Position numbers and translations under genes: made by a program. Below are positions 1,394-57,615 of a stretch of 59,357 nt of DNA, one piece after another (position 1 is the stretch's first letter; each line of letters begins with the position of its first letter). A model generated the notes under the pieces. That model saw only the letters and a program-made list of their open reading frames with translations. It ran no database searches and was not told the origin of the DNA. The stretch comes from a virus. The DNA lies in the IMG/VR virus record IMGVR_UViG_3300042486_000337, positions 1 to 59,357 of that record; one strand, written 5' to 3'.

Positions 1394-1401
1394 AAAAAAA
1401 T

Positions 1402-2103
1402 ATGATAAACACACCATTAACAAAATTATTATTTTTAGACATTGAAACCGTTGGAGTTCAACCTGATTGGGAATCTCTCCAAACGAATAGACCTGAATTG
1501 GCGTTTCAATTTGAGAACTATTACGATTGGTTTCAAAAAAGATTTCCTGAAGACGCTGACAAGCCTGTTGGAGATATGTTTGTTAATAGGTCGGCATTGG
1601 TACCGGAATTCGCAAGAATTGCTTGTGTGAGTGTTGCCTTCGTAACTGACAAAGGCGAAACCAAAATGCAATCATTTAGTAATCCTGACGAAAAAATAAT
1701 GTTACAAGAAGTTCAAAAACTATTATATAGAGTTGGAGAACTTGGTTTCTTTTTATGTGGCCATAATGTTAAAGGATTTGATATTCCAATGTTGGCGAAA
1801 AGAATGATTATGAATGGGATTATGCCACCAAAAATATTACCCGGACACGATACTAAACCATGGGAAATCAAAGCGTTAGACACCAAAGAAGTTTGGCAAT
1901 ATGGTGGATATGGTTCAATTGCGTCATTAGAACTTATGTGTGTATGTTTGGGTATTGAGTCTTCAAAAAACATGGAAGTAACCGGAAATAAAGTTCACGA
2001 GGCATTTTGGGTGAAAAAAGATATTAAGGGTATTATTGAATATTGTGAAAAGGACGTATCGGTTTTAATCGATGTCATAAAAAAATTAAATGAATTAAAA
2101 TAA
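1402..2103 (+). CDS. DnaQ-like (DEDDy) 3'-5' exonuclease
   Basis: A 233-residue single-domain exonuclease of the RNase H-like superfamily. The ExoI motif FLDIET gives Asp13 and Glu15, ExoII is in GHNVKGFDIP (Asp127), and ExoIII is Y214-x3-D218 (YCEKD). This tyrosine form marks the DEDDy class related to the exonuclease domain of family B polymerases. Such free-standing proteins are known in phages as proofreading or DNA-processing nucleases. The stop codon overlaps the start of the dUTPase gene (TAATG), suggesting translational coupling within a nucleotide/DNA metabolism pair. No polymerase is present in the window, so its partner is unknown. Confidence 0.85.
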   Translation: MINTPLTKLLFLDIETVGVQPDWESLQTNRPELAFQFENYYDWFQKRFPEDADKPVGDMFVNRSALVPEFARIACVSVAFVTDKGETKMQSFSNPDEKIMLQEVQKLLYRVGELGFFLCGHNVKGFDIPMLAKRMIMNGIMPPKILPGHDTKPWEIKALDTKEVWQYGGYGSIASLELMCVCLGIESSKNMEVTGNKVHEAFWVKKDIKGIIEYCEKDVSVLIDVIKKLNELK

Positions 2104-2732
2104 TGTTAGATATAAACAACTTAGGTCATTTTGACCCAAAAACGAAAGACGAGATTATTAGACAATTTGAGAAAATCAAAGCTGAAGCAGGTATTGAAAC
2201 TGAAGATGATAATTATCAAAAAGAACTTGATGAAATGTTAGGATTTTCTATGGATGAAATGGAAGAAGAGATAAATAAAATGTCGAAAACCAAAACCATA
2301 AAAGTTGAACTAACAAATGCGGATTCCGTTTTTCCAAAATATGCTTACCCATCAGATTCGGGATTTGATTTACATGCGTCGGAAGAAGTTATTATAGGTC
2401 CGTTTGGTAGAGCATTAGTTCCAACAGGATTAAAAGTTTCTTTTGAGGAAGGATATGAAATTCAAGTTAGACCAAAAAGTGGATTGGCAATTAAACAAGG
2501 ATTAACAGTTCTTAACACACCCGGAACCGTAGACCAGGGATATACCGGTGAAATTCAAGTTATTGTTTTCAACACCAATAATACGACGGTAACAATACCT
2601 AAAGGTATGAAAGTAGGTCAAGCGGTGTTATGTCCTGTAGTTCAAGGTAAATATGTTAATTTTGAATCGGTGGATAAAGTGGAGGACAAAGATAGAGGGA
2701 ATAATGGATTTGGTTCAACAGGATTAATTTAA
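2103..2732 (+). CDS. dut: dUTP pyrophosphatase (trimeric dUTPase) with N-terminal extension
   Basis: Hydrolyses dUTP to dUMP and pyrophosphate, keeping uracil out of phage DNA and feeding dTMP synthesis. The trimeric-type motifs are all visible: SDSGFDLHA (about 84-92), RPKSGLA (123-129), GTVDQGYTGE (141-150) and the C-terminal arm DRGNNGFGSTG (197-207). About 60 acidic, helical residues precede the core and are not part of the standard enzyme of roughly 145 residues. An internal ATG at 2280 would give exactly the usual length, so either the extension is real or translation starts there. The ATG at 2103 is favoured by its overlap with the upstream stop codon. Confidence 0.92.
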   Translation: MLDINNLGHFDPKTKDEIIRQFEKIKAEAGIETEDDNYQKELDEMLGFSMDEMEEEINKMSKTKTIKVELTNADSVFPKYAYPSDSGFDLHASEEVIIGPFGRALVPTGLKVSFEEGYEIQVRPKSGLAIKQGLTVLNTPGTVDQGYTGEIQVIVFNTNNTTVTIPKGMKVGQAVLCPVVQGKYVNFESVDKVEDKDRGNNGFGSTGLI

Positions 2733-2733
2733 T

Positions 2734-3888
2734 ATGAAGATAGGGTTAATTGGGTGCGATATAATTGGATTAACATTTGCGTTGTTGTGCGAACAAAATG
2801 GACATGAAATATTAATTTCAGAAGATGAAGATTTTGTATATAACTTAAATCAAAAAGTCGTCATAACTAACGAACCGTTAATTCAAAGTTTGTTATTAGA
2901 TAGTAATCGTTTGTCGGGAACCACAAACCCAATTGATGTTATTAAACATTCTGACATTATATTCACATTTTCAGAACCAATATCATCAATTGATGGTATA
3001 TACGACACCTCAAAAGTATTTGAGGTTATTAAACATTTTTTTACCGCGAATTCATTGGAGATTCCACTATATGATAAAAAATTTGTGGTATGTTCTACCA
3101 CCAACCCTGGTGATGTTGAACAAATTCAAAAAAAATTATCAATGTTTAATATTGAAGTGGCGTATAATCCACCAATTATTACCCATGGTAATTTGGTGAA
3201 GGATTACCAACATTCGGATATTACGATTATTGGTTCCGATTATGATAAAATAAAAGAAGATTTATCGTTAATATATCGTCAAATAATTAAAGGTTCAGTT
3301 CATCTTTATTTGATGTCTATTAAATCCGCCGAAATTACAAAAATTGGTATTGATGGTTTTTTAGCTACAAAAATAACTTACGCAAATGTAATATCAAATT
3401 TAATGGAAAAAATGGGAGTTGAGGATGAAATAAGTTTAGTGTTAAACGCAATTAACCGTGATTTGAGAATCGGTGAAAAACCTTTAACTTCCACCTATGG
3501 ATTCTCGGGCCCATCAATATCTAAATCAAATAGAACATTAATCAAATATTTGGAAGATTTGGGTTTGAGTTATGAGTTACCGTTGTCGGTTAAAAACGAT
3601 AATGAATACCATATTCAACATCTAAAATTGAAATACTTGGAGATAAATCCCGATAAATCAGTACCATTTATTTTTGAAGCCGTTGGAGATGTTAAAGAAG
3701 AGGTGTTTGACGAATCCCAAGAAATAAAATTATGTGTTGAGTTATTATCAGAAGGATACATGATACACACATATAAAAATGAAAACACATTTTCAAAATT
3801 ACTAAAATTAAGTGATTCTTATGAAAATAGATTAAAATTTTTTAAACAAGGAACATCCCCTCAAGGATGTAAAATTAAATTAAAATGA
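2734..3888 (+). CDS. UDP-glucose/GDP-mannose dehydrogenase-like protein lacking the catalytic cysteine
   Basis: A 384-residue protein with the nucleotide-sugar dehydrogenase layout: N-terminal dinucleotide-binding start (MKIGLIGCDIIG), the EPLIQSLL helix, a STTNPGD segment matching the family STVPPG turn (about 121-127), and the central helix ...AEITKIGIDGFLATKITY (about 199-216). In active enzymes the oxidation uses the cysteine of GxGFGGPCFPKD. Here the corresponding stretch reads YGFSGPSISKSN, so Ser261 replaces Cys and Asn replaces the following Asp. The NAD-binding GxGxxG is also imperfect (GCDIIG). It sits inside the glycosylation block. It may be a binding or regulatory relic, or do a different reaction; normal four-electron oxidation of a sugar looks unlikely. 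Confidence 0.72.
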   Translation: MKIGLIGCDIIGLTFALLCEQNGHEILISEDEDFVYNLNQKVVITNEPLIQSLLLDSNRLSGTTNPIDVIKHSDIIFTFSEPISSIDGIYDTSKVFEVIKHFFTANSLEIPLYDKKFVVCSTTNPGDVEQIQKKLSMFNIEVAYNPPIITHGNLVKDYQHSDITIIGSDYDKIKEDLSLIYRQIIKGSVHLYLMSIKSAEITKIGIDGFLATKITYANVISNLMEKMGVEDEISLVLNAINRDLRIGEKPLTSTYGFSGPSISKSNRTLIKYLEDLGLSYELPLSVKNDNEYHIQHLKLKYLEINPDKSVPFIFEAVGDVKEEVFDESQEIKLCVELLSEGYMIHTYKNENTFSKLLKLSDSYENRLKFFKQGTSPQGCKIKLK

Positions 3889-5408
3889 TAACAATAATAT
3901 ATTCTACGCACAAAGATTCAAACTATAATAAAGAATTTCAATTACATTTGAATAAAACAATTGGAGTTAAAAATTATGAAATATTAGAATTTGAAAACCA
4001 TAATCAATATTCATTAGCCGAAGTATATAATAAGGGGATTTCCCAATCAAAATACGATATTATTGTTTGTATCCATAACGACATTAAACTTGAAAATGGT
4101 TGGGGTAAAAAACTTTTATCCGATTTTTCCAATTCTCCCGAATTCGGTATAATTGGAAAGGCGGGTTCTTGTTATTTTCCCGAATCAGGAGTTTATTGGG
4201 AAAGAATGAACCAAACTATGGTTGGGCAAGTTTATCATCACCCTCCGGGTCAAAACAAATGGATAAATCGATACTCAACAAAATTACCGGAATTAATTCC
4301 TGTGGTTACAATTGATGGGTTGTTTATGGCGTTTAATAAGACAAAAATCAAACACACTTTTGATGAAACCATTGGTAAATTCCATTTTTACGACCACGGA
4401 TTTTGTGTTCCTAATTATTTAGATGGTGTTAAAATTGGGGTGACAACCTCGTTTGAAATCACTCATCAATCTATCGGACAACCGAACCAAGAATTTTTCG
4501 AGTCCAAAGATAAATTTTTGGAGAAATATAAGTCCATATTACCAATAGACTTAAAACCAAACAAAGTTTTTGTAGAACAATTAAAAGAAAAACCAATAAA
4601 AAATATTGGGAAAGTTGCGGTTATTATACCAACAAAAGGGAAGGTTAGTATGTTATTTGATTGTATTAACTCACTAATCACCCATTGTAATTCAAACATT
4701 TTTGAAATTTTTATTGCCGACACTGGTTCGTCCGAAGAAGAAAAAACAGAAATAAAATCATTCATTCTTGAGAATAAAGAAAAAGCCGTAATCAAACTAA
4801 TTGAATATGACTATTATAATTTCGCAAAAATAAATAATGATGTAGTTAAAAACCATATTGACGAAAGATTTGAATTTTTATTATTTTGCAATAATGATAT
4901 TGTTGTATTAAATAATGTTATTTATGGAATGTTAAAAACATTTAAAGAGAATGTTAATGTCGGGACTGTCGGAGCAAGACTTCATTACGGCGACAATACA
5001 ATCCAACATAATGGTATTATATTGATTGCGTATCCGGATAGGTCGATTAGGGTAACTCACGAAGGATTACGTAGTTATTACAAATATAATACCTCCCCAA
5101 AACAAGTGTTGGGTAATACCGGAGCATTACTTATGATTAGAAAATCTCTATTCGAGAAGTGTGAATATTTTAATGAGAGTTATTACGGTTGTTTTGAAGA
5201 TGTTGAACTTAACATAAAATGTATTTCTTTGGGGCACACCAATTACTTTAATGGTAATTTGGTGGCATATCATTTAGAAAGTCAAACAAGAAATCAATCT
5301 TCAGATAAAAACGAACAAGAATTAATTGACTATAACACCAAATTGGTTCCGTTCATTAACCAAAATTTAGATAAAATAAAGAATTTATTATTATATGCAA
5401 ATAATTGA
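3885..5408 (+). CDS. Two-domain glycosyltransferase (GT-A type, family 2-like)
   Basis: A 507-residue protein with two GT-A-like halves. The first (about 1-200) starts MITIIYSTHKDSNYN and carries NKGISQSKYDIIVCIHNDI, the usual position of the donor/metal-binding DxD-like site. The second (about 240-500) starts VAVIIPTKGKVSMLFDCINSL, a clear GT2 entry, with LLFCNNDIVVLN and a later GNTGALLMIRKSLFE...FEDVELNIKC segment typical of rhamnosyl-type GT2 enzymes. The ATG overlaps the previous stop (ATGA) and the 3' end overlaps the next gene by 14 bases. It may build a disaccharide step by step; the substrate is unknown. Confidence 0.82.
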   Translation: MITIIYSTHKDSNYNKEFQLHLNKTIGVKNYEILEFENHNQYSLAEVYNKGISQSKYDIIVCIHNDIKLENGWGKKLLSDFSNSPEFGIIGKAGSCYFPESGVYWERMNQTMVGQVYHHPPGQNKWINRYSTKLPELIPVVTIDGLFMAFNKTKIKHTFDETIGKFHFYDHGFCVPNYLDGVKIGVTTSFEITHQSIGQPNQEFFESKDKFLEKYKSILPIDLKPNKVFVEQLKEKPIKNIGKVAVIIPTKGKVSMLFDCINSLITHCNSNIFEIFIADTGSSEEEKTEIKSFILENKEKAVIKLIEYDYYNFAKINNDVVKNHIDERFEFLLFCNNDIVVLNNVIYGMLKTFKENVNVGTVGARLHYGDNTIQHNGIILIAYPDRSIRVTHEGLRSYYKYNTSPKQVLGNTGALLMIRKSLFEKCEYFNESYYGCFEDVELNIKCISLGHTNYFNGNLVAYHLESQTRNQSSDKNEQELIDYNTKLVPFINQNLDKIKNLLLYANN

Positions 5409-5961
5409 TGAAAATAAAATAACCTTCATAATACCTTCGGTAAATCGGGAGACACTAACTAATAGTGTTAATTCTCTTATAAACCAAACAAATGGTAATT
5501 GGAAATGTATTATTATTTATGATGGGGTTTCAGGTGTAGAATTTGAAGATGAAAGAATTAAATGTATTGAGATTAATAAACTGGGAAATAACACCTCTAC
5601 GCACGGAGTTTCGGGTTTGGTTAGGGATATTGGATTGGATTTGGTTGATACCGGTTGGATTGGATTTTTGGATGACGATGATAGTTTAGAACCCGAATAT
5701 GTTGAAACCTTATTTAGTAAATACACGGATTACGACTTTGTAATCTTTAGAATGATATGGGAAAATGGTAGAGTATTTCCGAGCGGGGAATCTTTATATT
5801 TTGGTAATGTTGGTATATCTTTTTGTTATAAAAATAAATTTGAAGGACTTAGGTTTGGTATCAATGATGATGGTGAAGACTTTAAATTTGTTGAAAAATT
5901 AACAAATTTGAGTAAAAATTATATCATAACCCCTGAAATCTTATATAGAGTAAACCACTAA
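5395..5961 (+). CDS. Family 2 glycosyltransferase
   Basis: A 188-residue GT-A protein. It opens with ITFIIPSVNRETLTNSVNSLINQTNGNWKC in pieces typical of GT2 (IIPS, SLINQT, W.C.I.YDG), and the metal-binding site is visible as GFLDDDDSLEPEY near residue 92. It is shorter than the usual 230-300 residues, so the acceptor-binding part is small or is supplied by a partner. It overlaps the previous gene by 14 bases and is followed by three more transferases in the same direction. Confidence 0.82.
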   Translation: MQIIDENKITFIIPSVNRETLTNSVNSLINQTNGNWKCIIIYDGVSGVEFEDERIKCIEINKLGNNTSTHGVSGLVRDIGLDLVDTGWIGFLDDDDSLEPEYVETLFSKYTDYDFVIFRMIWENGRVFPSGESLYFGNVGISFCYKNKFEGLRFGINDDGEDFKFVEKLTNLSKNYIITPEILYRVNH

Positions 5962-5975
5962 TAACACAATAAAAT

Positions 5976-6695
5976 ATGACGCTAAGAGTATTTGTAGTAA
6001 ATTTAAACAACAAAGGTTATACCGAAAAATGTATAAACCTATTACTTAACCAAAATTATAAAAATTTTAAGATAACCTTATTCGACCAAAATTCTAGAGA
6101 GGAAGGAACTACCGATATGTTAAATTATTTCGCAACTAAAAATGTTGATGTAATTAGAAATACAGATAACGACCCTCTAAATTCGGTGTGGAATTTACTT
6201 TACTCAACTTATTGTGAAGATATATTGTGTTTCTTAAATAATGATGTCCTATTTTATGATAATTTTATTTCGGACGTTATTAATGTATTCGAAAAAGAAC
6301 CAAATGTTGGAGTTGCGGTACATTCAACCAATCATGATGATTTTATAGTTAAAAAAGATATCACCGAATATGAAATTGTTGAGAGACACAAACATATGCA
6401 GGGTTGGGATTTTAGTATTAGGAGAGAATTATATACGATAATACCCGAAAATTTAAAAACTTTTTGTGGAGATGATTTTATTTTTCATCACTTATATGAA
6501 AAAGGATTTGATATGGCATACATTACAAGTTCACCTATGGTTCATTTCGAAGGTCAAAGTAAACCACATTTAGTTCATGGAGGACTTGAGTCGGATATTC
6601 AAACCTATATTAATATGGGATACCCACATAATTTGAAAATAAACACAAGATTTTCAAATGTGAAACCAAGTAAAATTTTTATACCTAATGACTAA
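5976..6695 (+). CDS. Family 2 glycosyltransferase
   Basis: A 239-residue GT-A protein. The opening LRVFVVNLNNKGYTEKCINLLLNQ with FKITLFDQNS and the LCFLNNDVLFYDNFI stretch (about 84-98) are the donor-binding core of a GT2 enzyme using an NND variant of DxD. The C-terminal part contains CGDDFIFHHLYEKGF, comparable with the ED-type catalytic base region, followed by HFEGQSK. It starts 14 bases after the preceding transferase and overlaps the next one by 8 bases. Substrate unknown. Confidence 0.8.
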   Translation: MTLRVFVVNLNNKGYTEKCINLLLNQNYKNFKITLFDQNSREEGTTDMLNYFATKNVDVIRNTDNDPLNSVWNLLYSTYCEDILCFLNNDVLFYDNFISDVINVFEKEPNVGVAVHSTNHDDFIVKKDITEYEIVERHKHMQGWDFSIRRELYTIIPENLKTFCGDDFIFHHLYEKGFDMAYITSSPMVHFEGQSKPHLVHGGLESDIQTYINMGYPHNLKINTRFSNVKPSKIFIPND

Positions 6696-7284
6696 TCAAC
6701 CTATTTTAGATATTATTGCGGTAACTTACGGACAAAACGAAATACTCAAATGTTTTATAAATTCAATAAAATCTCAAACAAATAGTAATTGGAGACTTTA
6801 TCTAATACATGACGGTAAAAACGAAGAATTACGAATTGATTTAGAGTCAAACGGATACTTAACCGAGAACATTACGTTTATAGAATATCCAGAAAGAACC
6901 ATGAATTACGGACATTTATTACGTAAGTGGGGATTAGAGAATTTGGTAACAAGTGAGTATGTGTTAATAACAAATGGTGATAACTATTATACTCCAAACA
7001 TGGTTGAGGAGGTATTGACTAACAACACGGATTTAATATATTTTGATTGTATCCATTCTCACGATAACGAACTAAACCACAACAAATCAACTTATGGATA
7101 TATGGATTGTAAATTAATTATTTCCAATATAGATATGGGTTGTGTTGTGGTTAGAAGTGAACTCGCAAAATCTATTGGGTTTAACTCGGTTAGTTATTCT
7201 GCGGATTGGGACTATTTTAATGAAATATTATTAACTAATCCATCTATAAAAAAAATAAATAAAGTTTTATTCGTTCACAATTAA
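6688..7284 (+). CDS. Family 2 glycosyltransferase (short)
   Basis: A 198-residue protein beginning ILDIIAVTYGQNEILKCFINSIKSQT, with NWRLYLIHDGKN, a GT2-like N-terminus resembling that of the 5395 gene (shared SQTNSNWRLYLIHDG / NQTNGNWKCIIIYDG pattern, so the two are probably paralogs). ITNGDNYYTPNMV occupies the DxD position, with a single Asp. The pairing SADWDYFNEIL late in the chain could be the catalytic-base region. Tight packing with its neighbours indicates co-expression. Confidence 0.75.
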   Translation: MTNQPILDIIAVTYGQNEILKCFINSIKSQTNSNWRLYLIHDGKNEELRIDLESNGYLTENITFIEYPERTMNYGHLLRKWGLENLVTSEYVLITNGDNYYTPNMVEEVLTNNTDLIYFDCIHSHDNELNHNKSTYGYMDCKLIISNIDMGCVVVRSELAKSIGFNSVSYSADWDYFNEILLTNPSIKKINKVLFVHN

Positions 7285-7302
7285 AAAAAAATAATAAATA
7301 AT

Positions 7303-8043
7303 ATGTCCACACAAACATTCATTTTCGTTCACGACCAAAATATAATTTTGGATTACATACAAGTTAATAAATTCAGTAATTTAGACAATTTAACTTATAT
7401 GTTTTTAGGTGGTGGAGACACCTCAAAAATTAAAGACTTATCAAATGTCATTATCTGTAGAGAATTACCGATTAACATTGAAGAATACCCAAAATTAACA
7501 TCATTTAGTGGGTGGTACGCAATTTGGAAAAACAATCTATATACTCACGACTTTATAAATTTATTTGAGTACGATATTAATTTATCTCCAAATTTTAATG
7601 AGACGACTCAAAATAACTTAACTTCAGAAACCGAAATTGTTGGGTATATCCCTTTTAGTCCTCATGATTACGCATTCTTGAAACATACTCCGTGGGTTAA
7701 AGAATTGTCAGAGTCAATTAAATCGAATTATAATATTGATATTATAAGTGAAATAAATGGATTACCTCATGATATAATTTGTTCCATGACCTCCAATCAC
7801 ACATTTAGTAAGAGTTCATTCGAGAAATATATGGAATGGATGGAACCAATGATTGATGATGTTAAAATTTCAAACTTATCCGGACATCAAGCAGAGCGTT
7901 CAATTAGTTTATTTTATCTATTACATAAATTAGAAAATGTTAAAGTTATTCCGGACATTTTACATCATTTTCAATTTGATAGTCATAAAACTCAAGGAAT
8001 TGGGGAAGAAAAATTCATAAATAATTACAGTAAATTACTATGA
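7303..8043 (+). CDS. Unrecognised protein in glycosyltransferase cluster
   Basis: A 246-residue protein that I do not assign to a family with confidence. It begins with a Rossmann-like alternation (TFIFVHDQNIILDYI...YMFLGGGDTSKIKDL) and has FEYDINLSPNF near residue 87, where an acidic triplet could serve as a donor-binding site. A region rich in His and Trp follows (PHDYAFLKHTPWV, LPHDIICSM, GHQAERSISLFYLLHKL). The position inside a run of transferases and the overlap with the next gene (ATGA) make a role in sugar transfer the best guess. Confidence 0.6.
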   Translation: MSTQTFIFVHDQNIILDYIQVNKFSNLDNLTYMFLGGGDTSKIKDLSNVIICRELPINIEEYPKLTSFSGWYAIWKNNLYTHDFINLFEYDINLSPNFNETTQNNLTSETEIVGYIPFSPHDYAFLKHTPWVKELSESIKSNYNIDIISEINGLPHDIICSMTSNHTFSKSSFEKYMEWMEPMIDDVKISNLSGHQAERSISLFYLLHKLENVKVIPDILHHFQFDSHKTQGIGEEKFINNYSKLL

Positions 8044-8696
8044 AATATTTAAGTTTCAGTTTATGGGGGGACAATCCTCTTTATAATGTTGGAGCAATTA
8101 GAAATGCAGAATTATATAAGACAATTTACCCTAATTGGCAAATGGTTGTTTATTATGATAATACAGTACCTGAAGAAACCATCACTACTTTAGATAGACT
8201 TGGAGTTGAATTATATAAAATGGATGGGTCAATTTACCCGGCGTTTTGGAGATTTTTAATCTCGGAGAAGAACGACTGTGAATATTCAGTATTTAGAGAT
8301 TGTGATTCTAGAATCTCAGTTCGAGAAAAGTTAGCGGTAGATGAATGGATAAATAGTGGTAAAAGTATTCATATCATGAGAGACCACCCATACCATAGAA
8401 TACCTGCAGGTAATAATTCGATTGGAATTTTAGCCGGAATGTGGGGAATTAAAGGTAGGATTATACCGATGATGGATATGATTGTTGAATTTATTAGAGG
8501 TAAACATAACAACTATGGGATAGACCAGAGTTTTTTGAAAATAATATATGATAGATTCAGTAACGACAGTGTCGTCCATGATGAATTTTTTGAGAATAAA
8601 CCATTCCCAATTAAAAGAGAAAATGGTAGATTTATTGGAGAAAGAATTGGTGTTGATGAGAATCCCGTTGGAAGTGATTATAAATTAGTTTTATGA
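8040..8696 (+). CDS. Putative glycosyltransferase (GT-A-like, RDCDSR motif)
   Basis: A 218-residue protein. Seen: a start MKYLSFSLWGDNPLYNVGAI typical of short phage and bacterial sugar-transferase-like proteins; a central YSVFRDCDSRISVREK segment (about 83-98) in which RDCDSR takes the place of a DxD metal site; and a histidine-rich IHIMRDHPYHR followed by GIGILAGMWGIKG-like residues. It overlaps both neighbours by 4 bases. Families of this look often modify surface glycans; the donor is unknown. Confidence 0.62.
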   Translation: MKYLSFSLWGDNPLYNVGAIRNAELYKTIYPNWQMVVYYDNTVPEETITTLDRLGVELYKMDGSIYPAFWRFLISEKNDCEYSVFRDCDSRISVREKLAVDEWINSGKSIHIMRDHPYHRIPAGNNSIGILAGMWGIKGRIIPMMDMIVEFIRGKHNNYGIDQSFLKIIYDRFSNDSVVHDEFFENKPFPIKRENGRFIGERIGVDENPVGSDYKLVL

Positions 8697-9406
8697 AAAT
8701 AAAATATGCGTTAATGGGGTCAAATGAAAACCCCTTGTATTTAGATTTTTGGCCTGTAGTTTCCAAAGTTTGGAAAGAGTTATTTAATATAACACCAGTT
8801 TTAGGTCTAATCGGTAATGAAGAGTCTGACCTATATGATGATGGAAATGGGTTAGTTATTAAATTAAAATCAATAGATGGTTTAGATGACGGGTTACTAT
8901 CACAAATAGTAAGATTATACCTACCAAAGTTTTTAGAAGGTAATTGTATTGTGTCAGACATTGATATGATACCATTATCCAAAAAATATTTTATAGACGG
9001 ATTAGATGAATATTCAGACAAAGAGTTCATTATAATGTCTTCACATCACCCACAAACTATCGACAGTAATCAATACCCAATGTGTTATGTTGCGGGTAAC
9101 GATAAACTGTTTAAACAAATATTCAATTTAGAAGATAGTTGGGATGTTTTCTCAAATAAAATACCTAATCAAGGGTGGTTCACCGACCAATGTTATTTAT
9201 ATGACGCAGTAAACTCAAATCCTGATATTACCTATAAATTCCCGGAAAGAGTTGGAGGATTTGTTGAAAATAGGGTAGATAGGATTGATTGGAAATACGA
9301 TATTAATAAATTAAAAGAAGGGTTTTATATTGATTGTCATTCATTGAGACCTTATATTAACCATAAAACGGAAGTTGATAATTTAATAAACTCACTATTG
9401 AAATAA
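8693..9406 (+). CDS. Putative glycosyltransferase (SDIDM motif)
   Basis: A 237-residue protein with LEGNCIVSDIDMIPLSKKYF (about 83-101), a classical D-x-D at the end of a beta strand as in nucleotide-sugar-dependent transferases. Cys- and Tyr-rich acceptor-side elements follow (YPMCYVAGND, GWFTDQCYLYDAV, comparable to the Trp-x-x-DQ loop in such folds). Its start overlaps the previous stop (ATGA), and only 6 bases separate it from the aminotransferase. Together with 7303 and 8040 it forms a trio of short unclassified transferase-like proteins. Confidence 0.65.
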   Translation: MKIKYALMGSNENPLYLDFWPVVSKVWKELFNITPVLGLIGNEESDLYDDGNGLVIKLKSIDGLDDGLLSQIVRLYLPKFLEGNCIVSDIDMIPLSKKYFIDGLDEYSDKEFIIMSSHHPQTIDSNQYPMCYVAGNDKLFKQIFNLEDSWDVFSNKIPNQGWFTDQCYLYDAVNSNPDITYKFPERVGGFVENRVDRIDWKYDINKLKEGFYIDCHSLRPYINHKTEVDNLINSLLK

Positions 9407-9412
9407 TATTAT

Positions 9413-10573
9413 ATGAAAAACATACAATTATTTATCCCTAAATTTAGAAAAAATGAAATCCTTGAAGAAATCTCCGAATGTTTGGATAAGGGTTGGACGG
9501 GTTTAGGTTATAAAACCATAGAAATTGAAAATAAATGGAAGGAATATACCGGATTATCACACGCACACTTCTTAAACTCTAACACATCAGGTTTACATTT
9601 GGCGATTAAAATATTAAAAGATGTTAATAAATGGAGTGACGGAGATGAAATAATAACAACCCCTTTAACATTTGTTTCTTCAAATCATGCGATAATGTAT
9701 GAAGGTATGACCCCAATATTTGCCGATGTTGATGAGTATTTATGTTTGAACCCAAAATCAGTTGAATCTAAAATTACTAAAAAAACTAAAGCAGTTTTAT
9801 TTGTTGGAATTGGTGGTAATACCGGTCAATATAATGAGATTGTTAGAATTTGTAGAAAACACAAATTAAAATTGATTTTAGACGCGGCACATATGTCAGG
9901 TACCTTTATTGAATGTCCTGAAACCAAAAGTGTTAAACATGTTGGTTATGATTCAGATGTAACCGTATTCAGTTTCCAAGCGGTTAAAAACCTACCTACC
10001 GCAGATTCAGGTATGATTTGTTTTAATAATGAAGATTATGACACTCTCTCACGAAAACTATCTTGGTTAGGGATTGATAAAGACACTTACCAGAGAACCA
10101 ACGATAAAGGTTCATATAAATGGGAATATGATTTAGTTGATGTCGGGTTCAAATATCATGGCAATTCAATTATGGCATCAATGGCGTTAGTTGGATTGAA
10201 ATATCTTGAGGAGGATAACGAATATCGTAGAAAAATTTCCGAAAAATATGAAAATGCGTTATCTAAACATAATATCGAAACCATTAAAATTCATAAGGAT
10301 TGTAAAAAATCTTCAAGACACTTATTTCAAATAGTAGTGGAAAACAGGAATAAATTTATGGAGATGTTAAATTCTAATGGAATCTACCCTGGTGTTCATT
10401 ATAGAGACAACACCAATTATAAAATGTACGAATACGGGAAAGTAGGGTGTCCTTACTCTAATAATATATCAGAAAAACTAATCTCATTACCTCTACATCT
10501 TAACTTAACTGATGATGATGTTGATTATGTAATTGAGAATGTTATTACCATAAATAAACAATTAAACAATTAA
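9413..10573 (+). CDS. DegT/DnrJ/EryC1/StrS family sugar aminotransferase
   Basis: A 386-residue PLP-dependent enzyme, expected to convert a nucleotide-linked keto-sugar to an amino-sugar. Visible: FLNSNTSGLHLAIKIL (53-68, PLP phosphate region), TTPLTFVSSNHAIMYEG, the Asp that contacts the PLP nitrogen in ILDAAH (Asp157), and the Schiff-base lysine in FSFQAVKNLPTADSG (Lys192). The length is normal. The gene implies an amino-sugar in the glycan made by this block; the 4-keto-sugar substrate must come from the host or from phage genes outside the window. Confidence 0.9.
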   Translation: MKNIQLFIPKFRKNEILEEISECLDKGWTGLGYKTIEIENKWKEYTGLSHAHFLNSNTSGLHLAIKILKDVNKWSDGDEIITTPLTFVSSNHAIMYEGMTPIFADVDEYLCLNPKSVESKITKKTKAVLFVGIGGNTGQYNEIVRICRKHKLKLILDAAHMSGTFIECPETKSVKHVGYDSDVTVFSFQAVKNLPTADSGMICFNNEDYDTLSRKLSWLGIDKDTYQRTNDKGSYKWEYDLVDVGFKYHGNSIMASMALVGLKYLEEDNEYRRKISEKYENALSKHNIETIKIHKDCKKSSRHLFQIVVENRNKFMEMLNSNGIYPGVHYRDNTNYKMYEYGKVGCPYSNNISEKLISLPLHLNLTDDDVDYVIENVITINKQLNN

Positions 10574-10580
10574 ATAAAAT

Positions 10581-11132
10581 ATGGAAAAAAATATAGAATT
10601 TTTTAACATTCAAGACGAACATCCTTCGGATTCGTTAAGGTTTTTAGACCCAAAAAATAAAAATTTTTTAGATTTAGGATGTGGGAGGCATACTGACAAG
10701 TCAGGTAATTGGACTCTACCTCCATCCGAATATACTCCAATATTTGCGGTAGAACGAGGAGCTAAAAAAGTGGTAGGTGTTGATTCAAGAGATGTTGAAA
10801 AATCTTTTTATGAAGAATACTTTAAAGAAAATTTTCCGGATATTGAATGTCATTTTTATACGGATTTAATTGAAAATTCAGAACAAGTTAAATCATTAAT
10901 TAAAACTCATGATATAGATTTCATTAAAACCGATATTGAAGGGTATGAGACATTATTTTTAACTTGGTCGAAAGAGGATTTTGAAAATATTACGGACTTT
11001 GTTATAGAGTACCATACTAACGAAATTAAAAACGGATTTTTAAATAAACTAAATGAGTGGGGATTCCAATTATACGCACAGGGAGTAACATGGGTAGATG
11101 GAATTGGGGTACTTTTTACGAAAAAAAACTAA
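10581..11132 (+). CDS. SAM-dependent methyltransferase (FkbM-like)
   Basis: A 183-residue Rossmann methyltransferase. FLDLGCGRHTD (about 31-41) is the SAM-binding glycine loop, VVGVDSRD holds the acidic residue that binds the ribose, and IDFIKTDIEGYETLFL matches the FkbM signature (D-x-E-G-x-E). FkbM-type enzymes O-methylate sugars or natural products, which fits the glycosylation context. A WTLPPSEYTPIFAVERGAKK insertion follows the glycine loop. The next gene starts one base after its stop codon. Confidence 0.82.
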   Translation: MEKNIEFFNIQDEHPSDSLRFLDPKNKNFLDLGCGRHTDKSGNWTLPPSEYTPIFAVERGAKKVVGVDSRDVEKSFYEEYFKENFPDIECHFYTDLIENSEQVKSLIKTHDIDFIKTDIEGYETLFLTWSKEDFENITDFVIEYHTNEIKNGFLNKLNEWGFQLYAQGVTWVDGIGVLFTKKN

Positions 11133-11133
11133 A

Positions 11134-11523
11134 ATGGAACTAATTGATTGTACTGAAAGATATTGGGAATTTGTGAGAAAATTAAGAACCGACGAAAAAA
11201 ATACTAGTTGGTTTTACACTCAACCGACAATCACATCTGAAGACCAAATAAAATACATGACAAATAATTCTTATAGGTATAAAATCTGTATTCATAATGG
11301 TGTTGAAGTCGGTTACATCGGATTACTTGATAATAATGAAATTACATATTGCGTTGATTCAAATTACAAAAATTTAGGGATTGGTACTTTTATGGTTGCC
11401 GAATTCATGAGAATTTACGATAATTTAATTGCATTTGTTATCCCTCAAAACATTTCAAGTAGTAAAGTTTTTGAAAAACTAGGTTTTGAAAAACATTATT
11501 TTTATAAATACAAAAAAATATGA
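11134..11523 (+). CDS. GNAT family acetyltransferase
   Basis: A 129-residue protein starting at the ATG at 11134, directly after the methyltransferase stop; an earlier in-frame ATG at 11098 would overlap that gene and give a non-family N-terminus. The fold is shown by GVEVGYIGLLDNNEITYCVDSNYKNLGIGTFM in pieces: the beta4 strand, then the acetyl-CoA loop NLGIGT (a variant of Q/RxxGxG/A), and the C-terminal SSKVFEKLGFEK. The family acetylates amines; in this setting the amino-sugar made by the DegT enzyme is an attractive but unproven substrate. Confidence 0.82.
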   Translation: MELIDCTERYWEFVRKLRTDEKNTSWFYTQPTITSEDQIKYMTNNSYRYKICIHNGVEVGYIGLLDNNEITYCVDSNYKNLGIGTFMVAEFMRIYDNLIAFVIPQNISSSKVFEKLGFEKHYFYKYKKI

Positions 11524-12167
11524 AGATTCTTATTTTAGTCTTAACTTATTTAGACGATAACATTTATTCCAAATTTTATGAAACCCAAAGAAAAACTTGG
11601 GATTCAATCGATGTTAAAGGAGTTGATACTTTTTATAACATAAATGGAGGAGATAAAAAAGAAATTAAAGGTAATTTAATTATAAACGACTTACCTGAAA
11701 CCGTATCAAATGAGGGGTATAAGATTATTAATTGTTTTAACCAAACATTAGATTGGGATTATGATTACATCTACCATACAAATTCAAGTTCATACGTTGA
11801 TAAAAAATTACTTTATGAGTGGTTATTAGACAAACCAAGAACTAACTTTTATTCAGGTGTTAAAGGTTCATATCAAGGATACCCTTTCTCATCAGGATGT
11901 GGATTCACAATCTCTAAAGATATTGTGAAATTAATTTTAGAACATCAAGACAATTGGTCTCACGGAGATGCCGATGACGCAACTTTAGGTATTTTATTAC
12001 ATGGGTTAGGAATCAATGTTTATGAAGCACCAAGATTCGATGTTATTGATTATGAAGGTGAAATACCAAACAATTTTTTTCATTATAGATGTAAAACAAA
12101 TAACCGTGAATTAGATATTAATAATTTAATAAGAATTCATAATTCAAAACTATCAAATATAATATGA
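11520..12167 (+). CDS. Putative glycosyltransferase (galactosyltransferase/fringe-like)
   Basis: A 215-residue protein beginning MKILILVLTYLDDNIYSKFYETQRKTW, with the 'RxTW' feature of GT31-like enzymes. DYDYIYHTNSSSYVDKKLL sits where the DxD-containing strand is expected, but the acidic motif is replaced by TNSSSYVD. YPFSSGCGFTISKDIVKLI followed by HGDADDATLGILL corresponds to the GxGY...EDV region of GT31. Similarity is by eye only. It overlaps both neighbours by 4 bases. Confidence 0.62.
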   Translation: MKILILVLTYLDDNIYSKFYETQRKTWDSIDVKGVDTFYNINGGDKKEIKGNLIINDLPETVSNEGYKIINCFNQTLDWDYDYIYHTNSSSYVDKKLLYEWLLDKPRTNFYSGVKGSYQGYPFSSGCGFTISKDIVKLILEHQDNWSHGDADDATLGILLHGLGINVYEAPRFDVIDYEGEIPNNFFHYRCKTNNRELDINNLIRIHNSKLSNII

Positions 12168-12544
12168 TACTAATACCTATCAGTGTAGGAGAATTAATTG
12201 ATAAATTATCAATTCTTCATATAAAACAAAATATGATTTCAGATGAAGTTAAGATAATGTTTATTAACAAAGAATTTGAATTATTATATAATTTTTCATC
12301 CGAATACCTTAGTAATGAAGAAATTTCCAAACTTTATCAACAATTAATTGATGTTAATACAACGTTATGGAAAATTGAAGACGAACTAAGGGTAATTGAG
12401 ACTCAAAAAATTTTTGATGATAAATTTATAGAATTGGCAAGATTAGTATATATAACTAACGATATTAGATTTACTATTAAAAATAAAATTAATGAGTTAA
12501 CAAATTCTGAAATAAGAGAACAAAAAGATTACGTAAAATATTAA
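12164..12544 (+). CDS. DUF6165-like protein
   Basis: A 126-residue helical protein beginning ILIPISVGELIDKLSILHIKQNMI. The ISVGELIDKLSIL stretch matches the hallmark of the small DUF6165 proteins, which are often found next to glycosyltransferases and polysaccharide genes. The function of that family is not established to my knowledge. The remainder is alternating charged helices without catalytic motifs. Overlap with the upstream gene (ATGA) suggests coupling. Confidence 0.65.
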   Translation: MILIPISVGELIDKLSILHIKQNMISDEVKIMFINKEFELLYNFSSEYLSNEEISKLYQQLIDVNTTLWKIEDELRVIETQKIFDDKFIELARLVYITNDIRFTIKNKINELTNSEIREQKDYVKY

Positions 12545-12546
12545 TT

Positions 12547-13620
12547 ATGAAAAAAATATTAATTCTTGGTGGTGGAGGGTTTATTGGAGGCCACTTAGCC
12601 AAAAAATTAAAAAATGAAGGTAACTGGGTTAGAGTTGTAGATATTAAAAAACATGAATACTTTACTGAAAGTGAGATGTGTGACGAATTTCTAAATTATG
12701 ATTTACGAGACCCAAAGAATGTGGATGCCGTTATTAGGTTAGAAACACAACATGATACAATATTACCATTTTCATACCACAAACAACCATTTTCAAAATT
12801 AACATCATTTGATGAAGTCTATCAATTGGCTGCCGATATGGGTGGAGCCGGTTATATCTTCACAGGAGAACATGATGCGGATGTGATGCACAACTCGGCA
12901 ATGATTAACTTAAATGTTGTGAAGTCATGTGTGGAACATGGAGTTAAAAAAGTATTCTATTCATCATCTGCCTGTATGTATCCGGAACATAATCAATTAG
13001 ACCCGAATAATCCAAATTGTGAAGAATCTTCAGCATATCCCGCAAACCCTGATTCAGAGTATGGTTGGGAGAAGTTATTCTCGGAAAGGTTATTTTTATC
13101 ATTTCATAGGAACTATGGATTAGATGTTAGAATCGCAAGATTTCACAATATCTTTGGTCCAATGGGAACTTGGAGAGGTGGTAAGGAAAAATCTCCAGCG
13201 GCAATGTGTCGAAAAGCAGCTGAAGCTAATGATGGAGACGTAATTGAAGTTTGGGGGGATGGTAAACAAACCCGTTCATTCCTCTACATTGACGATTGTA
13301 TTGAATCCGTATTAAGATTTATGAGACAAGATAATTTTATTGGTCCGGTTAATATAGGTTCCGAAGAAATGGTTGAAATTAATCAATTAGCGAAATTAGC
13401 AATAATTGCTTCGGGAAAAAACATTACAATACAAAATATTGGGGGTGACGAATTTAAAACCAAGTACGGATTTAAATGTCCCGTAGGAGTTCAAGGTAGA
13501 AATTCAGACAATAGATTGTATAAAGAAAAAATGAATTGGGAACCACAAATGTTATTGTCTGAAGGTATGATAAAAACATTTGATTGGATTAAAACCCAAG
13601 TCGATAACAATAAAAATTAA
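12547..13620 (+). CDS. GDP-mannose 3,5-epimerase-like SDR enzyme
   Basis: A 357-residue extended short-chain dehydrogenase. Seen: NAD loop GGGGFIGGHLA (8-18), QLAADMGGAGYI, FYSSSACMYPE with Cys143, catalytic Tyr172 and Lys176 in EYGWEKL, and a segment RFHNIFGPMGTWRGGKEKSPAAMCRKA (198 onward) that is almost word for word the plant GDP-mannose 3,5-epimerase signature; its GGKEK lysine and Cys143 correspond to the acid/base pair of that enzyme. An extra segment of about 25 residues (about 60-88) interrupts the N-terminal domain. It probably makes GDP-L-galactose or a related sugar as donor for the neighbouring transferases. Confidence 0.85.
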   Translation: MKKILILGGGGFIGGHLAKKLKNEGNWVRVVDIKKHEYFTESEMCDEFLNYDLRDPKNVDAVIRLETQHDTILPFSYHKQPFSKLTSFDEVYQLAADMGGAGYIFTGEHDADVMHNSAMINLNVVKSCVEHGVKKVFYSSSACMYPEHNQLDPNNPNCEESSAYPANPDSEYGWEKLFSERLFLSFHRNYGLDVRIARFHNIFGPMGTWRGGKEKSPAAMCRKAAEANDGDVIEVWGDGKQTRSFLYIDDCIESVLRFMRQDNFIGPVNIGSEEMVEINQLAKLAIIASGKNITIQNIGGDEFKTKYGFKCPVGVQGRNSDNRLYKEKMNWEPQMLLSEGMIKTFDWIKTQVDNNKN

Positions 13621-51128: not shown

Positions 51129-51508
51129 GGGGGTAAAATGGAATTGACTGGTACATCTGGTTATTTGGGGCACGTCGAAGCTGAATTAACTTCGTTATCA
51201 ACTGATTTAAAACAACAGACGGCAACGTTCTAAACAAAATGGCTCTAGTAGGTCTTGTTAAACAAGATGAGCTTGTAGCAGTAGCATAGTCTCTACTACA
51301 TTCGGGTCGGGGGGACATTAACCCAGGAACAGAAGTCCTTGATGGGTGGAAAAATGACTAAACCTTAAATTGAGTCGTCCATTGGTTGTTAGGTTTACGA
51401 TGGTGAAGAACAAACCAACTATTTCGGAACATTAGAAAATGTTGTCCTAAACGTGTAGTCCTAAATAGGTAGTGTAGTCAGGACGAGGTTTCGAAACCTC
51501 TACCTCCA
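51129..51508 (+). ncRNA. ssrA: tmRNA (ssrA), one-piece, phage-encoded
   Basis: Ends pair as a tRNA acceptor stem: 5' GGGGGTA with 3' TACCTCC plus discriminator A51508 (CCA not encoded). The 5' tRNA-like segment AATGGAATTGACTGG and the T arm GAGG-TTTCGAA-ACCTC are typical of tmRNA. The tag reading frame runs from GCT (51242) to TAG (51287-51289) and encodes ALVGLVKQDELVAVA; the exact resume codon is inferred. The end ELVAVA is a hydrophobic degron-like tail, but differs from the usual YALAA. Downstream sequence folds into pseudoknot-like helices. The tmRNA rescues stalled ribosomes and tags the product for ClpP-type proteases. Confidence 0.93.
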
Positions 51509-51516
51509 CTCAGATA

Positions 51517-53875: not shown

Positions 53876-53882
53876 ATAAATT

Positions 53883-53975
53883 TACCGAAACACCGAGTAC
53901 CACAATTACGGTGTGCCTCCACGCTTCTCCGTGGACCAATGCTGTTTTTACCCGTGGTTACACCATTCGGTAGGG
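53883..53975 (-). ncRNA. Structured spacer RNA between tRNA-Cys and tRNA-Lys
   Basis: About 90 bases closed by ACCGAA...TTCGGT, with inner hairpins CACCG...CGGTG and CCACG...CGTGG. It is much richer in G/C than protein-coding neighbours and has no reading frame. It is either a processing spacer or a small RNA on the minus-strand tRNA transcript. Confidence 0.45.
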
Positions 53976-53978
53976 TAG

Positions 53979-54053: not shown

Positions 54054-54060
54054 AAAAATT

Positions 54061-54128
54061 GCAGGATATCGTTTAACCTGCGGTGTTGATATCATTACAC
54101 ACCTTCACTCGTGACCGAGTAACGATTT
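54061..54128 (-). ncRNA. Structured spacer of three consecutive hairpins
   Basis: Between tRNA-Lys and tRNA-Ile: GCAGG...CCTGC, GGTGT...ACACC and ACTCG-TGAC-CGAGT, three perfect 5-base stems in 66 bases. Probably a processed spacer or small RNA. Confidence 0.42.
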
Positions 54129-54133
54129 TTTTG

Positions 54134-54639: not shown

Positions 54640-55132
54640 AAAAAAGAAAGGTTCAAAATCATCCCCGCGCCATCGGGTGAACCTTCCAAGTTTCTAATAA
54701 TCTTGGCGACAAATAATATCCCATACCGATACTCCTAAGATTCGTTAGACCATAGTAACCATCCACGGTAGGTGTATACTCTCACCCATCTTTCAGGGTT
54801 ACCCTCAGAACATCTTCACCCTACCACCATAGTTACGTGGGGTCTCACTCGGAAGCGGAGTGTATACTATAAGATTGTTCAGTATTCTTATAGCTTGTGG
54901 GTTGTGCTACGACTAATTAAAGCCCCTTACCCCTTTTACCCATAATAGGGGACTCTTATACTATTTTGATACATGGTCTTCTTCCAAATCTCGATTCGAC
55001 CGGTTAAGGACGAGTCCTTTCGGAATCATAATAGTATTATTGTGTTACCTCCCCCATAGCCTTGAAGCCTTCCAGTCAGGGTCACACACCATAACGGACG
55101 AGCATTTCCGTTAATCGTGGGGTCTTATTATT
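54640..55132 (-). ncRNA. Large structured non-coding RNA (about 490 bases)
   Basis: Starts right after the zinc-ribbon stop codon and ends with a terminator-like hairpin AAGGTTCA...TGAACCTTTC plus T-run. No reading frame of note. Perfect helices on the minus strand include AACGGA...TCCGTT, ATACTATT...AATAGTAT enclosing GATTC...GAATC and AAGGA-CTCG-TCCTT, CTATAAGA...TCTTATAG, CACTC...GAGTG, GTAAC...GTTAC with inner GGTAGG...CCTACC and GGGTAACCC, and AATCTT...AAGATT. Size, fold density and location among phage tRNAs recall the ornate RNAs GOLLD and ROOL, but I cannot align it to either. Confidence 0.65.
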
Positions 55133-55309
55133 TTACAAGGTACTTATTTCATTTATTGAACCTTCACTATCTGTGTGATATTTTATCACCACCAATTTAC
55201 TACATTTTCTACAAGGTTCTGTTGAACCTCCAAGTGTTCTTGGGGATAACTTGAAGATTACAGGATTTGAACAATGAGGACAAGATACTGATACTGGTAT
55301 TTTATTCAT
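55133..55309 (-). CDS. Small zinc-ribbon protein upstream of the large RNA
   Basis: A 58-residue protein, MNKIPVSVSCPHCSNPVIFK..., with CPHC and CRKC pairs spaced by 22 residues, a classic zinc ribbon, then a beta-rich end (LVVIKYHTDSEGSI). It lies 12 bases after the 55322 gene and its stop is directly followed by the structured RNA, so protein and RNA probably share one transcript from the promoter at 55600. An RNA-binding function would fit. Confidence 0.72.
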   Translation of the reverse strand: MNKIPVSVSCPHCSNPVIFKLSPRTLGGSTEPCRKCSKLVVIKYHTDSEGSINEISTL

Positions 55310-55642: not shown

Positions 55643-55759
55643 AAGTCGGAACAGGATTCGAACCTGTAATTAAGAGAGGTCACTTACCGCCGATGGGACA
55701 TATACCATCACCCTCTGTATTGCCATACCGCGCCGCGTTACCAGTTCCGCCACCCGACT
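55643..55759 (-). tRNA. Oversized tRNA-like element A (117 bases)
   Basis: Acceptor AGTCGGG/TCCGACT, D arm GGCGGAACTGGTAACGC, T arm ACAGGTTCGAATCCTGT. The middle is about 30 bases too long and lacks a 5+7+5 anticodon arm: it has a GTA-TGGCAA-TAC mini hairpin, then AGAGG...CCTCT enclosing GATGG...CCATC. If the mini hairpin is the anticodon loop, the anticodon would be GGC (Ala). Could be an interrupted tRNA, a pseudo-tRNA or a tRNA-like RNA. Confidence 0.5.
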
Positions 55760-55764
55760 ATATT

Positions 55765-55960
55765 CGGGTCGGGATTAAGCTTCTCCCATATGACCCTACT
55801 CTCTTTAGTTGGTTTGTTTATATAAGACACAAACCCATCTCTCTGTAAAAAACTTCAGTCTTCGTAAGGTGAACCTTCTACCCCTCCACCAACTAATCAA
55901 TCGATTGTTACTTTAACGTCTCAACAATCCACATCGGTAGATGACAAGAAAAAAAGACGG
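55765..55960 (-). ncRNA. Structured spacer RNA (about 190 bases)
   Basis: Minus-strand helices GATTGTT...AACAATC, TTAGTTGGT...ACCAACTAA and GTTTGT...ACAAAC inside it, AGGTTCACCT. No reading frame. It separates element A from tRNA-Met. Confidence 0.42.
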
Positions 55961-55964
55961 CTTG

Positions 55965-56039: not shown

Positions 56040-56042
56040 GAA

Positions 56043-56187
56043 ATTAAAAAACAAGTTACACGATTTGGTCTACACCGAAATACTTTTCAACCAAACCCCT
56101 TCCAATACGATATTCGGTTTATCGTATTGTCCCCCTCCCTCATAAGAGTTCAGGGTTAAAAGCCTACCAGTCTTACCTCACTTGTTT
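56043..56187 (-). ncRNA. Structured spacer RNA closed by ACAAGT/ACTTGT
   Basis: About 140 bases with a closing helix ACAAGT...ACTTGT followed by T6 on the minus strand (terminator-like), a perfect 9-base stem CAATACGAT...ATCGTATTG and TTTGGT...ACCAAA. It looks like an independent small RNA ahead of tRNA-Met. Confidence 0.48.
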
Positions 56188-56191
56188 TTAG

Positions 56192-56318: not shown

Positions 56319-56392
56319 GGGGTCTAACGGGACTTGAACCCGCGACCTCTTGATTCACAATCAAGCGCTCTAACCACTGAGCTATAGACCAC
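56319..56392 (-). tRNA. tRNA-His (anticodon GTG)
   Basis: Anticodon hairpin CTTGA-TTGTGAA-TCAAG. The 8-base acceptor with extra G-1 opposite C73 expected for His is visible (one T-C mismatch at pair 1-72). T arm GCGGGTTCAAGTCCCGT. Confidence 0.9.
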
Positions 56393-56470
56393 ATATAAAG
56401 TGCCAGTCTTTCCTGGCCGTCACCTTGCGCCGCAGGGATGCCCGCATTGCCGTTGGTTGCGTTTGTTATT

Positions 56471-56583
56471 GCTGACTAACAAGGACTTGAACCTGATTCC
56501 TGTTTCCCGGGTCGGGACCGTTGAAAGCTTACCACTTTTCGTATCCCTACTGTGTTCTACCGTGCCCATTACACCATAGTCAA
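56471..56583 (-). tRNA. Oversized tRNA-like element E (113 bases)
   Basis: Acceptor TTGACTA/TAGTCAG and T arm TCAGGTTCAAGTCCTTG. D arm GTGT...ACAC has an expanded loop containing GGGCACGGTAGA. Between D and T arms are about 58 bases with a TCCCG-ACC-CGGGA hairpin but no standard anticodon arm. Confidence 0.45.
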
Positions 56584-56632
56584 TCGGATGCTTCGAATCA
56601 TCCAGTCTCAAGTTAATTACTTTTGAGGTTTG

Positions 56633-56737
56633 TAGTCAGGACAGGAATCGAACCTGCGAGTGCTTTGCCATAAAGAGTGCCATTAGCCGTTAATCTCAAC
56701 CTTGGGAGGTGCCACGTTACCACTACGCCACCTGACT
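56633..56737 (-). tRNA. Oversized tRNA-like element F (105 bases)
   Basis: Acceptor AGTCAGG/CCTGACT (perfect), D arm GGCGTAGTGGTAACGT, T arm GCAGGTTCGATTCCTGT. The middle has a 3-base stem ACC-TCCCAA-GGT (anticodon CCC, Gly, if real), then ATTA-ACGGC-TAAT and CTTT-ATGGC-AAAG hairpins instead of a short variable loop. Confidence 0.5.
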
Positions 56738-56892: not shown

Positions 56893-56991
56893 TAGTCAGA
56901 ACAGGATTCGAACCTGTAGTTTTGCCAATCCCTTTTTGGTTTTATATGTTAGAGGGCTAACACAAGCGTCTACCAATTTCGCCACCTGACT
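56893..56991 (-). tRNA. Oversized tRNA-like element G (99 bases)
   Basis: Acceptor AGTCAGG/TCTGACT, Leu-type D arm GGCGAAATTGGTAGACGC, T arm ACAGGTTCGAATCCTGT. The anticodon position is a TGTTAG-CCCT-CTAACA hairpin with a four-base loop, followed by a variable arm CCAA...TTGG. No normal seven-base anticodon loop can be drawn. Confidence 0.5.
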
Positions 56992-57489: not shown

Positions 57490-57615
57490 TAGTCAGGACA
57501 GGATTCGAACCTGTATGAGGTAACTGTTGTGAGGCTTTTAAGCCGAGCAGTGTCATTTCCTTACGCTTACTCTATTACTCACTCGCAATTCGCTGTACCA
57601 CTTCGCCACCTGACT
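57490..57615 (-). tRNA. Oversized tRNA-like element J (126 bases)
   Basis: Acceptor AGTCAGG/CCTGACT, T arm ACAGGTTCGAATCCTGT, Leu-like start GGCGAAGTGGTACAGC. Between them is a long stretched hairpin: GTAA...CTG...GGCT-TAAA-AGCC...CAG...TTAC. Read as a six-base loop the tip is GGC-TTAAAA-GCC, compatible with a Leu TAA anticodon. About 40 bases longer than a normal class II tRNA. Confidence 0.5.

Follow-up and report, generated by a model that had tools for sequence, protein, structure and literature searches.

Within the tRNA gene array of a T4-like phage lies a gap whose content raises two questions: does it hold a discrete RNA, and, if so, is that RNA a member of a known family? The sequence analysed here, hereafter the window, is a single IMG/VR virus record (IMGVR_UViG_3300042486_000337) taken over its full 59,357 bases. 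Its gene content is that of a T4-like phage, with a major head protein, portal, terminase large subunit, head maturation protease and PhoH, and its right end carries a minus-strand array of 18 or more tRNA genes. A first-pass annotation, made from the sequence without database searches, had read the gap within this array as a highly folded RNA, either a divergent member of the GOLLD or ROOL families or a new class. GOLLD and ROOL, which occur in phages and prophages near tRNA islands, form RNA-only cages (PMC12286853); GOLLD is a 14-mer RNA nanocage that binds ribosomes in pull-downs and whose level rises during lysis (PMC12286853).

Extent and homologues of the RNA

Relatives of the window were collected through the terminase and peptidase genes, and two of them contained the RNA, at 85% and 66% identity and with sharp ends. 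Three sequence patterns from conserved parts of the RNA were run on IMG/VR and yielded many more loci, and a fourth, in which the letters of the P7 stem were left free, yielded 20 further members; six of the 26 new loci from the later pattern search were removed as chance-matched coding sequence. The RNA is carried by 61 IMG/VR phage contigs besides the window, with 46 distinct full-length sequences of about 370–530 nt and one locus in each of the first 41 contigs. The carriers are large T4-like freshwater phages, and the RNA lies between tRNA genes. Searches by blastn found no match in cultured phages or plasmids. The exact 5′ motif was present in 0 of 84,980 bacterial and archaeal genomes (one per species), and these therefore hold no prophage copies with that motif. 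No description of the RNA was found in the literature, with coverage of subscription papers incomplete.

Homologue conservation placed the start of the RNA at GACCCCAC (window 55124) and its 3′ terminus at the GAACCUUU arm (window 54647), after which comes CTTTTTT. RNA position 1 corresponds to window 55124 and position 478 to window 54647 (window = 55125 – position). The extent first proposed, 54640–55132, was nearly exact, and the comparative evidence confirms a discrete RNA on the minus strand. Other early observations also held: the RNA begins 8 nt beyond the stop codon (55133–55135) of a zinc-ribbon gene, ends in a terminator-like hairpin (P13 plus T-run), and lacks a conserved reading frame, since no overlapping ORF exceeds 57 aa and homologue indels are many and of varied length. 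The description 'highly folded', if taken in the energetic sense, was unsupported. Shuffled sequences averaged –133.2 kcal/mol, close to the minimum free energy of –136.6 kcal/mol for the RNA (z = –0.47), and 30 of 100 did as well; since energy alone would leave the case undecided, the z-score was dropped as evidence of structure; the above-chance signal is comparative.

Conserved secondary structure and pseudoknots

Thirty-one distinct full-length members, which average 79% identity with a minimum of 66%, were aligned. Conserved complementarity, scanned for without bias, supplied the stems of one structure, comprising 87 pairs in 18 helices, three of which are pseudoknots (Table 1). Standard pairs fill 98.5% of the 2694 base-pair cells, and both sides have changed in 40 of the 87 pairs (221 cells). 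None of 500 shuffles reached any of five pairing measures, and sliding the partners by 1–3 columns reduced pairing to 32–46% and both-side changes to 6–15 pairs. In this alignment P1 alone is invariant; each of the other helices varies in one or more pairs, and 16 helices hold a pair changed on both sides. The first reading had proposed at least eight helices, with nested long-range pairings; the helices are borne out, as is the long range of some, but several of these are not nested and instead cross as pseudoknots. Covariation across homologues, the lack of which had been named beforehand as a possible refutation, was found.

Fifteen distinct members that came to light later, each 72–88% identical to its nearest earlier member, served as a further test of the structure. 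P6, P7, P8, P11 and P12 pair without exception in these sequences, PK3 fails in a single cell (Table 1), and new compensatory pair types appear in P1, P2 and P11. The inner part of P3 is weaker. The low scores of PK1 and P13 stem from alignment shifts: on inspection by eye, PK1 is again paired, through the fresh sequence AUCUG with CAGAU, and P13 pairs AAAGGUCGUC with GGCGACCUUU. A covariation test that covered every pair of columns against a tree-based null lacked the power to reach significance across the alignment, although its top-scoring pairs are mostly helix pairs; the case therefore rests on the counts for the defined structure and on the later members.

In PK1 the P2 loop pairs with the strand preceding P5, in PK2 the P5 loop with a strand following P6, in PK3 the P7 loop with a downstream GUYC, and in PK4 the loop of the 3′ hairpin with a strand following P11. 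Because PK4 did not lend itself to counting by columns, each member's own strand and loop were compared with permuted partners instead: the longest Watson–Crick run averaged 5.05 for own partners vs 4.02 ± 0.12 (standard deviation) for permuted ones, with the pair types CGCC/GGCG, UACCA/UGGUA, CAUCA/UGAUG, CACUAA/UUAGUG and CGGAU/AUCCG. With PK1–PK3 covarying column by column and PK4 backed by this permutation test, the RNA has at least four pseudoknots. A further candidate, PK5, is invariant in all members and for that reason has no support from covariation; it is suggested by complementarity. Unpaired core positions are about as conserved as paired ones (0.838 and 0.845, respectively), and 71 of 210 are invariant in the 46 members, as would be expected of tertiary contacts or a binding surface. 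That the locus encodes a real, conserved structured RNA is, in our judgement, virtually certain.

Table 1. Elements of the RNA, with window coordinates (later, the 15 members found later)
Feature	RNA positions	Window	Strand	Observations
RNA, conserved part	1–478	54647..55124	–	478 nt; homologues in 61 other contigs, 31-member alignment
P1 (CCCCA/UGGGG)	3–7/69–73	55052..55122	–	invariant in first 31; one compensatory C-G to U-A later
P2 hairpin	12–17/28–33	55092..55113	–	3 pairs changed on both sides; new C-G type later
PK1 (GCUC/GAGU)	P2 loop 22–25 with 170–173	54952..55103	–	ACUC/GAGU, AUCC/GGAU, AUCUG/CAGAU, ACC/GGU across members
P1b	38–41/80–83	55042..55087	–	single compensatory change (L199)
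P3 hairpin	45–47/63–65 and 52–55/59–62	55060..55080	–	U-A to C-G in 3 members
Variable peripheral domain	~84–165	54960..55041	–	missing or different sequence in other members (alignment)
P5	174–178/191–195	54930..54951	–	2 pairs changed on both sides
PK2	P5 loop 183–187 with 223–227	54898..54942	–	100% paired; A-U to G-C in 3 members
P6 hairpin	201–204/211–214	54911..54924	–	loop UUAA invariant; 2 covarying pairs; 60/60 later
P7 hairpin	231–239/251–259	54866..54894	–	6/9 pairs changed on both sides; 100% paired in 31 + 15 members (135/135 later)
PK3 (GAAC/GUUC or GGAC/GUCC)	P7 loop 245–248 with 314–317	54808..54880	–	12 compensated members; 100% of 31, 59/60 later
P8 hairpin	263–267/275–279	54846..54862	–	one pair changed on both sides; 100% paired (75/75 later)
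P9 hairpin	282–286/297–302	54823..54843	–	2 pairs changed on both sides
P10	326–329/338–341	54784..54799	–	3/4 pairs changed on both sides
P11	355–359/397–401	54724..54770	–	5/5 pairs covary; 75/75 later, new pair types
P12 hairpin	375–380/387–392	54733..54750	–	5/6 pairs covary; 90/90 later
Candidate PK5 (GUAAC/GUUAC)	P9 loop 289–293 with 366–370	54755..54836	–	complementary, invariant in 46/46
P13 3′ hairpin, plus T-run	441–446/471–476 and 448–450/460–462	54640..54684	–	GGUUC/GAACC, GAUCC/GGAUC, GGUAC/GUACC, GGUGU/ACACC
PK4 (CGCC/GGCG)	417–420 with P13 loop 454–457	54668..54708	–	permutation test

Variable domains and accessory elements

The 5′ and central parts of the RNA are the most conserved, and the 3′ domain (P11–P13) is the most variable, although its helices stay the same across three or more sequence types. 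Other members lack the peripheral domain of the window RNA (positions 84–165) or have a different sequence in its place, and most of them carry an insert of ~60 nt at the tip of P10. P13 is not always a terminator, the 3′ T-run being short in one subgroup.

Directly 5′ of the RNA, and seen nowhere else, an extra element of ~70 nt (AGAGAGAACCGUGAGU...GUCAUACUCU) was found in 15 distinct cases, ending 2–5 nt before the RNA (for example, L132:815-878, L184:4505-4568 and L191:6305-6368). Both sides of its outer stem change in step, and it had no match above chance in Rfam. It may be an optional 5′ domain of the RNA. A second small structured element (GGAUGAGGCCGCAAUCGGAUUCC...) was observed between tRNAs in eight contigs (L163, L170, L171, L172, L174, L180, L188 and L201), sometimes just before the RNA and sometimes elsewhere.

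Relation to known RNA families

The covariance models of Rfam 15 had no match to the RNA, even at E ≤ 10. The families covered include GOLLD and ROOL as well as RNase P RNA, group I and II introns, tmRNA, 6S RNA and the self-cleaving families, in agreement with the first-pass annotation, which had seen no features of RNase P RNA, tmRNA or group I or II introns; no housekeeping RNA matched. Like tmRNA (RF00023), the RNA is phage-borne, and a tmRNA gene lies nearby (51129–51511, 88.8 bits), but this is a separate gene on the plus strand of the window, opposite to the RNA. OLE RNA is a cellular RNA of Bacillota with protein partners. The RNA resembles it as a large ornate RNA and differs in having no match to any Rfam model.

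The likeness to GOLLD is considerable: both are large, elaborately folded, phage-borne genes near tRNA genes, with conserved and variable domains and without a known protein partner. However, GOLLD is ~800 nt long with a conserved 3′ and a variable 5′ part (PMC12286853), whereas the RNA is shorter, is most variable in its 3′ domain and has its own helices and pseudoknots. The GOLLD model (RF02032), for which a match above 150 bits was the criterion, gave no hit to the RNA at E ≤ 10 and none to it in seven RNA-bearing loci; in contig L181, GOLLD scored 340.5 bits elsewhere than the RNA. A covariance model of the central part of the RNA, with which three positives score 155–179 bits, gave no match in six other GOLLD loci and nothing below E = 0.08 in 47 related records that lack the RNA.

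GOLLD is a separate gene, and it is present above cut-off in many of the same contigs: 23 of the first 41 records and 9 of the later 20, or 32 of 62 with the window, from which GOLLD is absent. In the first 23 of these records it lies on the same strand as the RNA, always downstream by ~3–12 kb; in two whole-contig cases of a later subgroup it lies ~5 kb upstream, again on the same strand. Only 3 of the 47 related records without the RNA have GOLLD, and some of the RNA-bearing records without it are long (269 kb and 299 kb). Since GOLLD is lacking in about half of the records with the RNA and three relatives have GOLLD alone, the two are not obligate partners. The association is nevertheless strong; lineage may explain it, and because the records are related by descent it does not prove a joint function.

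ROOL resembles the RNA in its setting in phage tRNA islands, similar length and several pseudoknots, but the ROOL model (RF03087) matched none of 42 records (the window and 41 homologue records) in a search whose controls gave no positive, and had no hit to the RNA itself at E ≤ 10. Of the two readings first offered, that of a new class is supported by the Rfam and ROOL results and the separate GOLLD gene, and membership of GOLLD or ROOL is not supported. Being long and noncoding, with helices that covary and more than one pseudoknot, the RNA is of the kind of the large ornate phage RNAs, best read as a new class that possibly works like GOLLD and ROOL and is a member of neither family.

Genomic neighbourhood

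No conserved protein neighbour was found across the homologue loci. The upstream neighbours differ, and in contigs other than the window they include unrelated protein genes. The zinc-ribbon gene upstream of the RNA in the window (58 aa), first put forward as the source of a partner protein, has no relative among ~230 fetched loci, and that proposal is not upheld. In many contigs a tRNA ends 3–5 nt before the RNA or begins 5–10 nt after it. In L176, the tRNA ending 3 nt before the RNA was labelled tRNA-Pyl by ARAGORN, which suggests a CUA anticodon. tmRNA scores above cut-off in 33 of 42 RNA-bearing records.

In 13 of 44 cases, vs 2.8 expected, the 160 nt upstream of the RNA contain a TAnnTTTG box of Bacteroidetes type, and in four of these 13 the box lies 20–24 nt before the RNA. 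On the strength of these boxes, our sole indication of the phylum, the carrier phages probably infect Bacteroidota.

Several other features of these loci were observed. Four stretches of the window on the minus strand (55643–55759, 56633–56737, 56893–56991 and 57490–57615) are tRNA matches of 99–126 nt uncalled by ARAGORN, and appear to be tRNAs with unusually long inserts or variable arms. Long, G+C-richer, structured-looking spacers between tRNAs (53876–53977, 54054–54132, 55760–55963, 56040–56190 and 56392–56632) are possible further small RNAs of the array. A freshwater-1 RNA (RF02979) match of 61.9 bits, against a cut-off of 72, lies in the same tRNA array as the RNA at L165:996-1056. Window 185–13620 (plus strand) holds a long run of genes whose ORF translations read as glycosyltransferases, sugar epimerases, aminotransferases and methyltransferases.

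Discussion

We propose, with a probability of roughly 0.6, that the RNA represents a new class of large structured noncoding RNA of T4-like phage tRNA arrays that acts in trans as a particle or scaffold, as GOLLD and ROOL may. It would probably be transcribed either from its own Bacteroidetes-type promoter or within the tRNA transcript; in the latter case, processing of the flanking tRNAs would free its ends, and in many members the 3′ hairpin and T-run would also terminate it. Folding through at least four pseudoknots would give a compact body with exchangeable outer domains. In the manner supposed for GOLLD and ROOL, this body would then be a stable, trans-acting RNA particle or scaffold within an island of translation RNAs (tRNAs, tmRNA and often GOLLD), possibly in connection with ribosomes or tRNAs. 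A stable, trans-acting RNA is the part of this proposal that we consider quite probable. Assembly into a homo-oligomeric particle is doubtful: the RNA has no strongly self-complementary loop pointing to self-assembly, only the A/U-rich UUAA of P6. Bolder still, and unlikely, is the idea of a natural RNA-only particle class unrelated in sequence to GOLLD, ROOL and OLE and made together with GOLLD in a common island of tRNAs, tmRNA and ornate RNAs, with one phage building two RNA assemblies that act on translation.

Alternatively, the RNA could act in cis, as a leader or attenuator setting the expression or processing of adjacent tRNAs, with the PK4-tied 3′ hairpin and T-run switching termination. 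The hairpin and T-run at the end of the RNA, often only 5–8 nt before the next tRNA, the tie that PK4 makes between the hairpin loop and an upstream segment, and the small structured elements just 5′ of the RNA in some contigs would all suit such a switch. We nonetheless regard it as quite unlikely, given that the next downstream tRNA in the window is ~360 nt away, that in other members the RNA is followed by a protein gene or by another type of tRNA, that the T-run is short in one subgroup, and that an RNA of 480 nt and four pseudoknots would make a large switch.

A ribozyme, such as one processing phage tRNA precursors, would account for the tRNA setting, the pseudoknotted fold and the conserved unpaired core, which includes an invariant GUUACUA preceded by a conserved GGAUG. 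Yet the RNase P, intron and self-cleaving families of Rfam 15 are unmatched, and related phages have tRNA arrays without the RNA in the sequence covered, leaving this explanation improbable. We hold a decoy or inhibitor RNA, aimed at tRNA- or ribosome-cutting nucleases or defence systems of the host, to be equally improbable: the patchy distribution, the swapping of outer domains and the company of tRNAs and tmRNA would fit it, but the invariant core suggests one fixed function. That the RNA is a divergent GOLLD or a detached 5′ half of it is very improbable indeed, for although the two share phages and strand and lie 3–12 kb apart in the first contig set, GOLLD is present as a separate full-length RF02032 match, the RNA has no RF02032 score, their order is reversed in one subgroup, and the RNA model is unmatched in the six other GOLLD loci.

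Our strongest claims concern the structure and distribution of this putative trans-acting RNA, and our weakest what it does. The RNA classes of such size and complexity known from bacteria and phages are few. How common RNA-only assemblies are, and what they do, are questions that the 2025 cryo-EM work on GOLLD, ROOL and OLE did not settle. The new class is a direct further case, with a covariation-supported model that includes pseudoknots and with dozens of natural variants, and its fixed core and swapped outer domains make it suited to structural work. The frequent presence of GOLLD and tmRNA in the same contigs ties these RNAs together and to translation.
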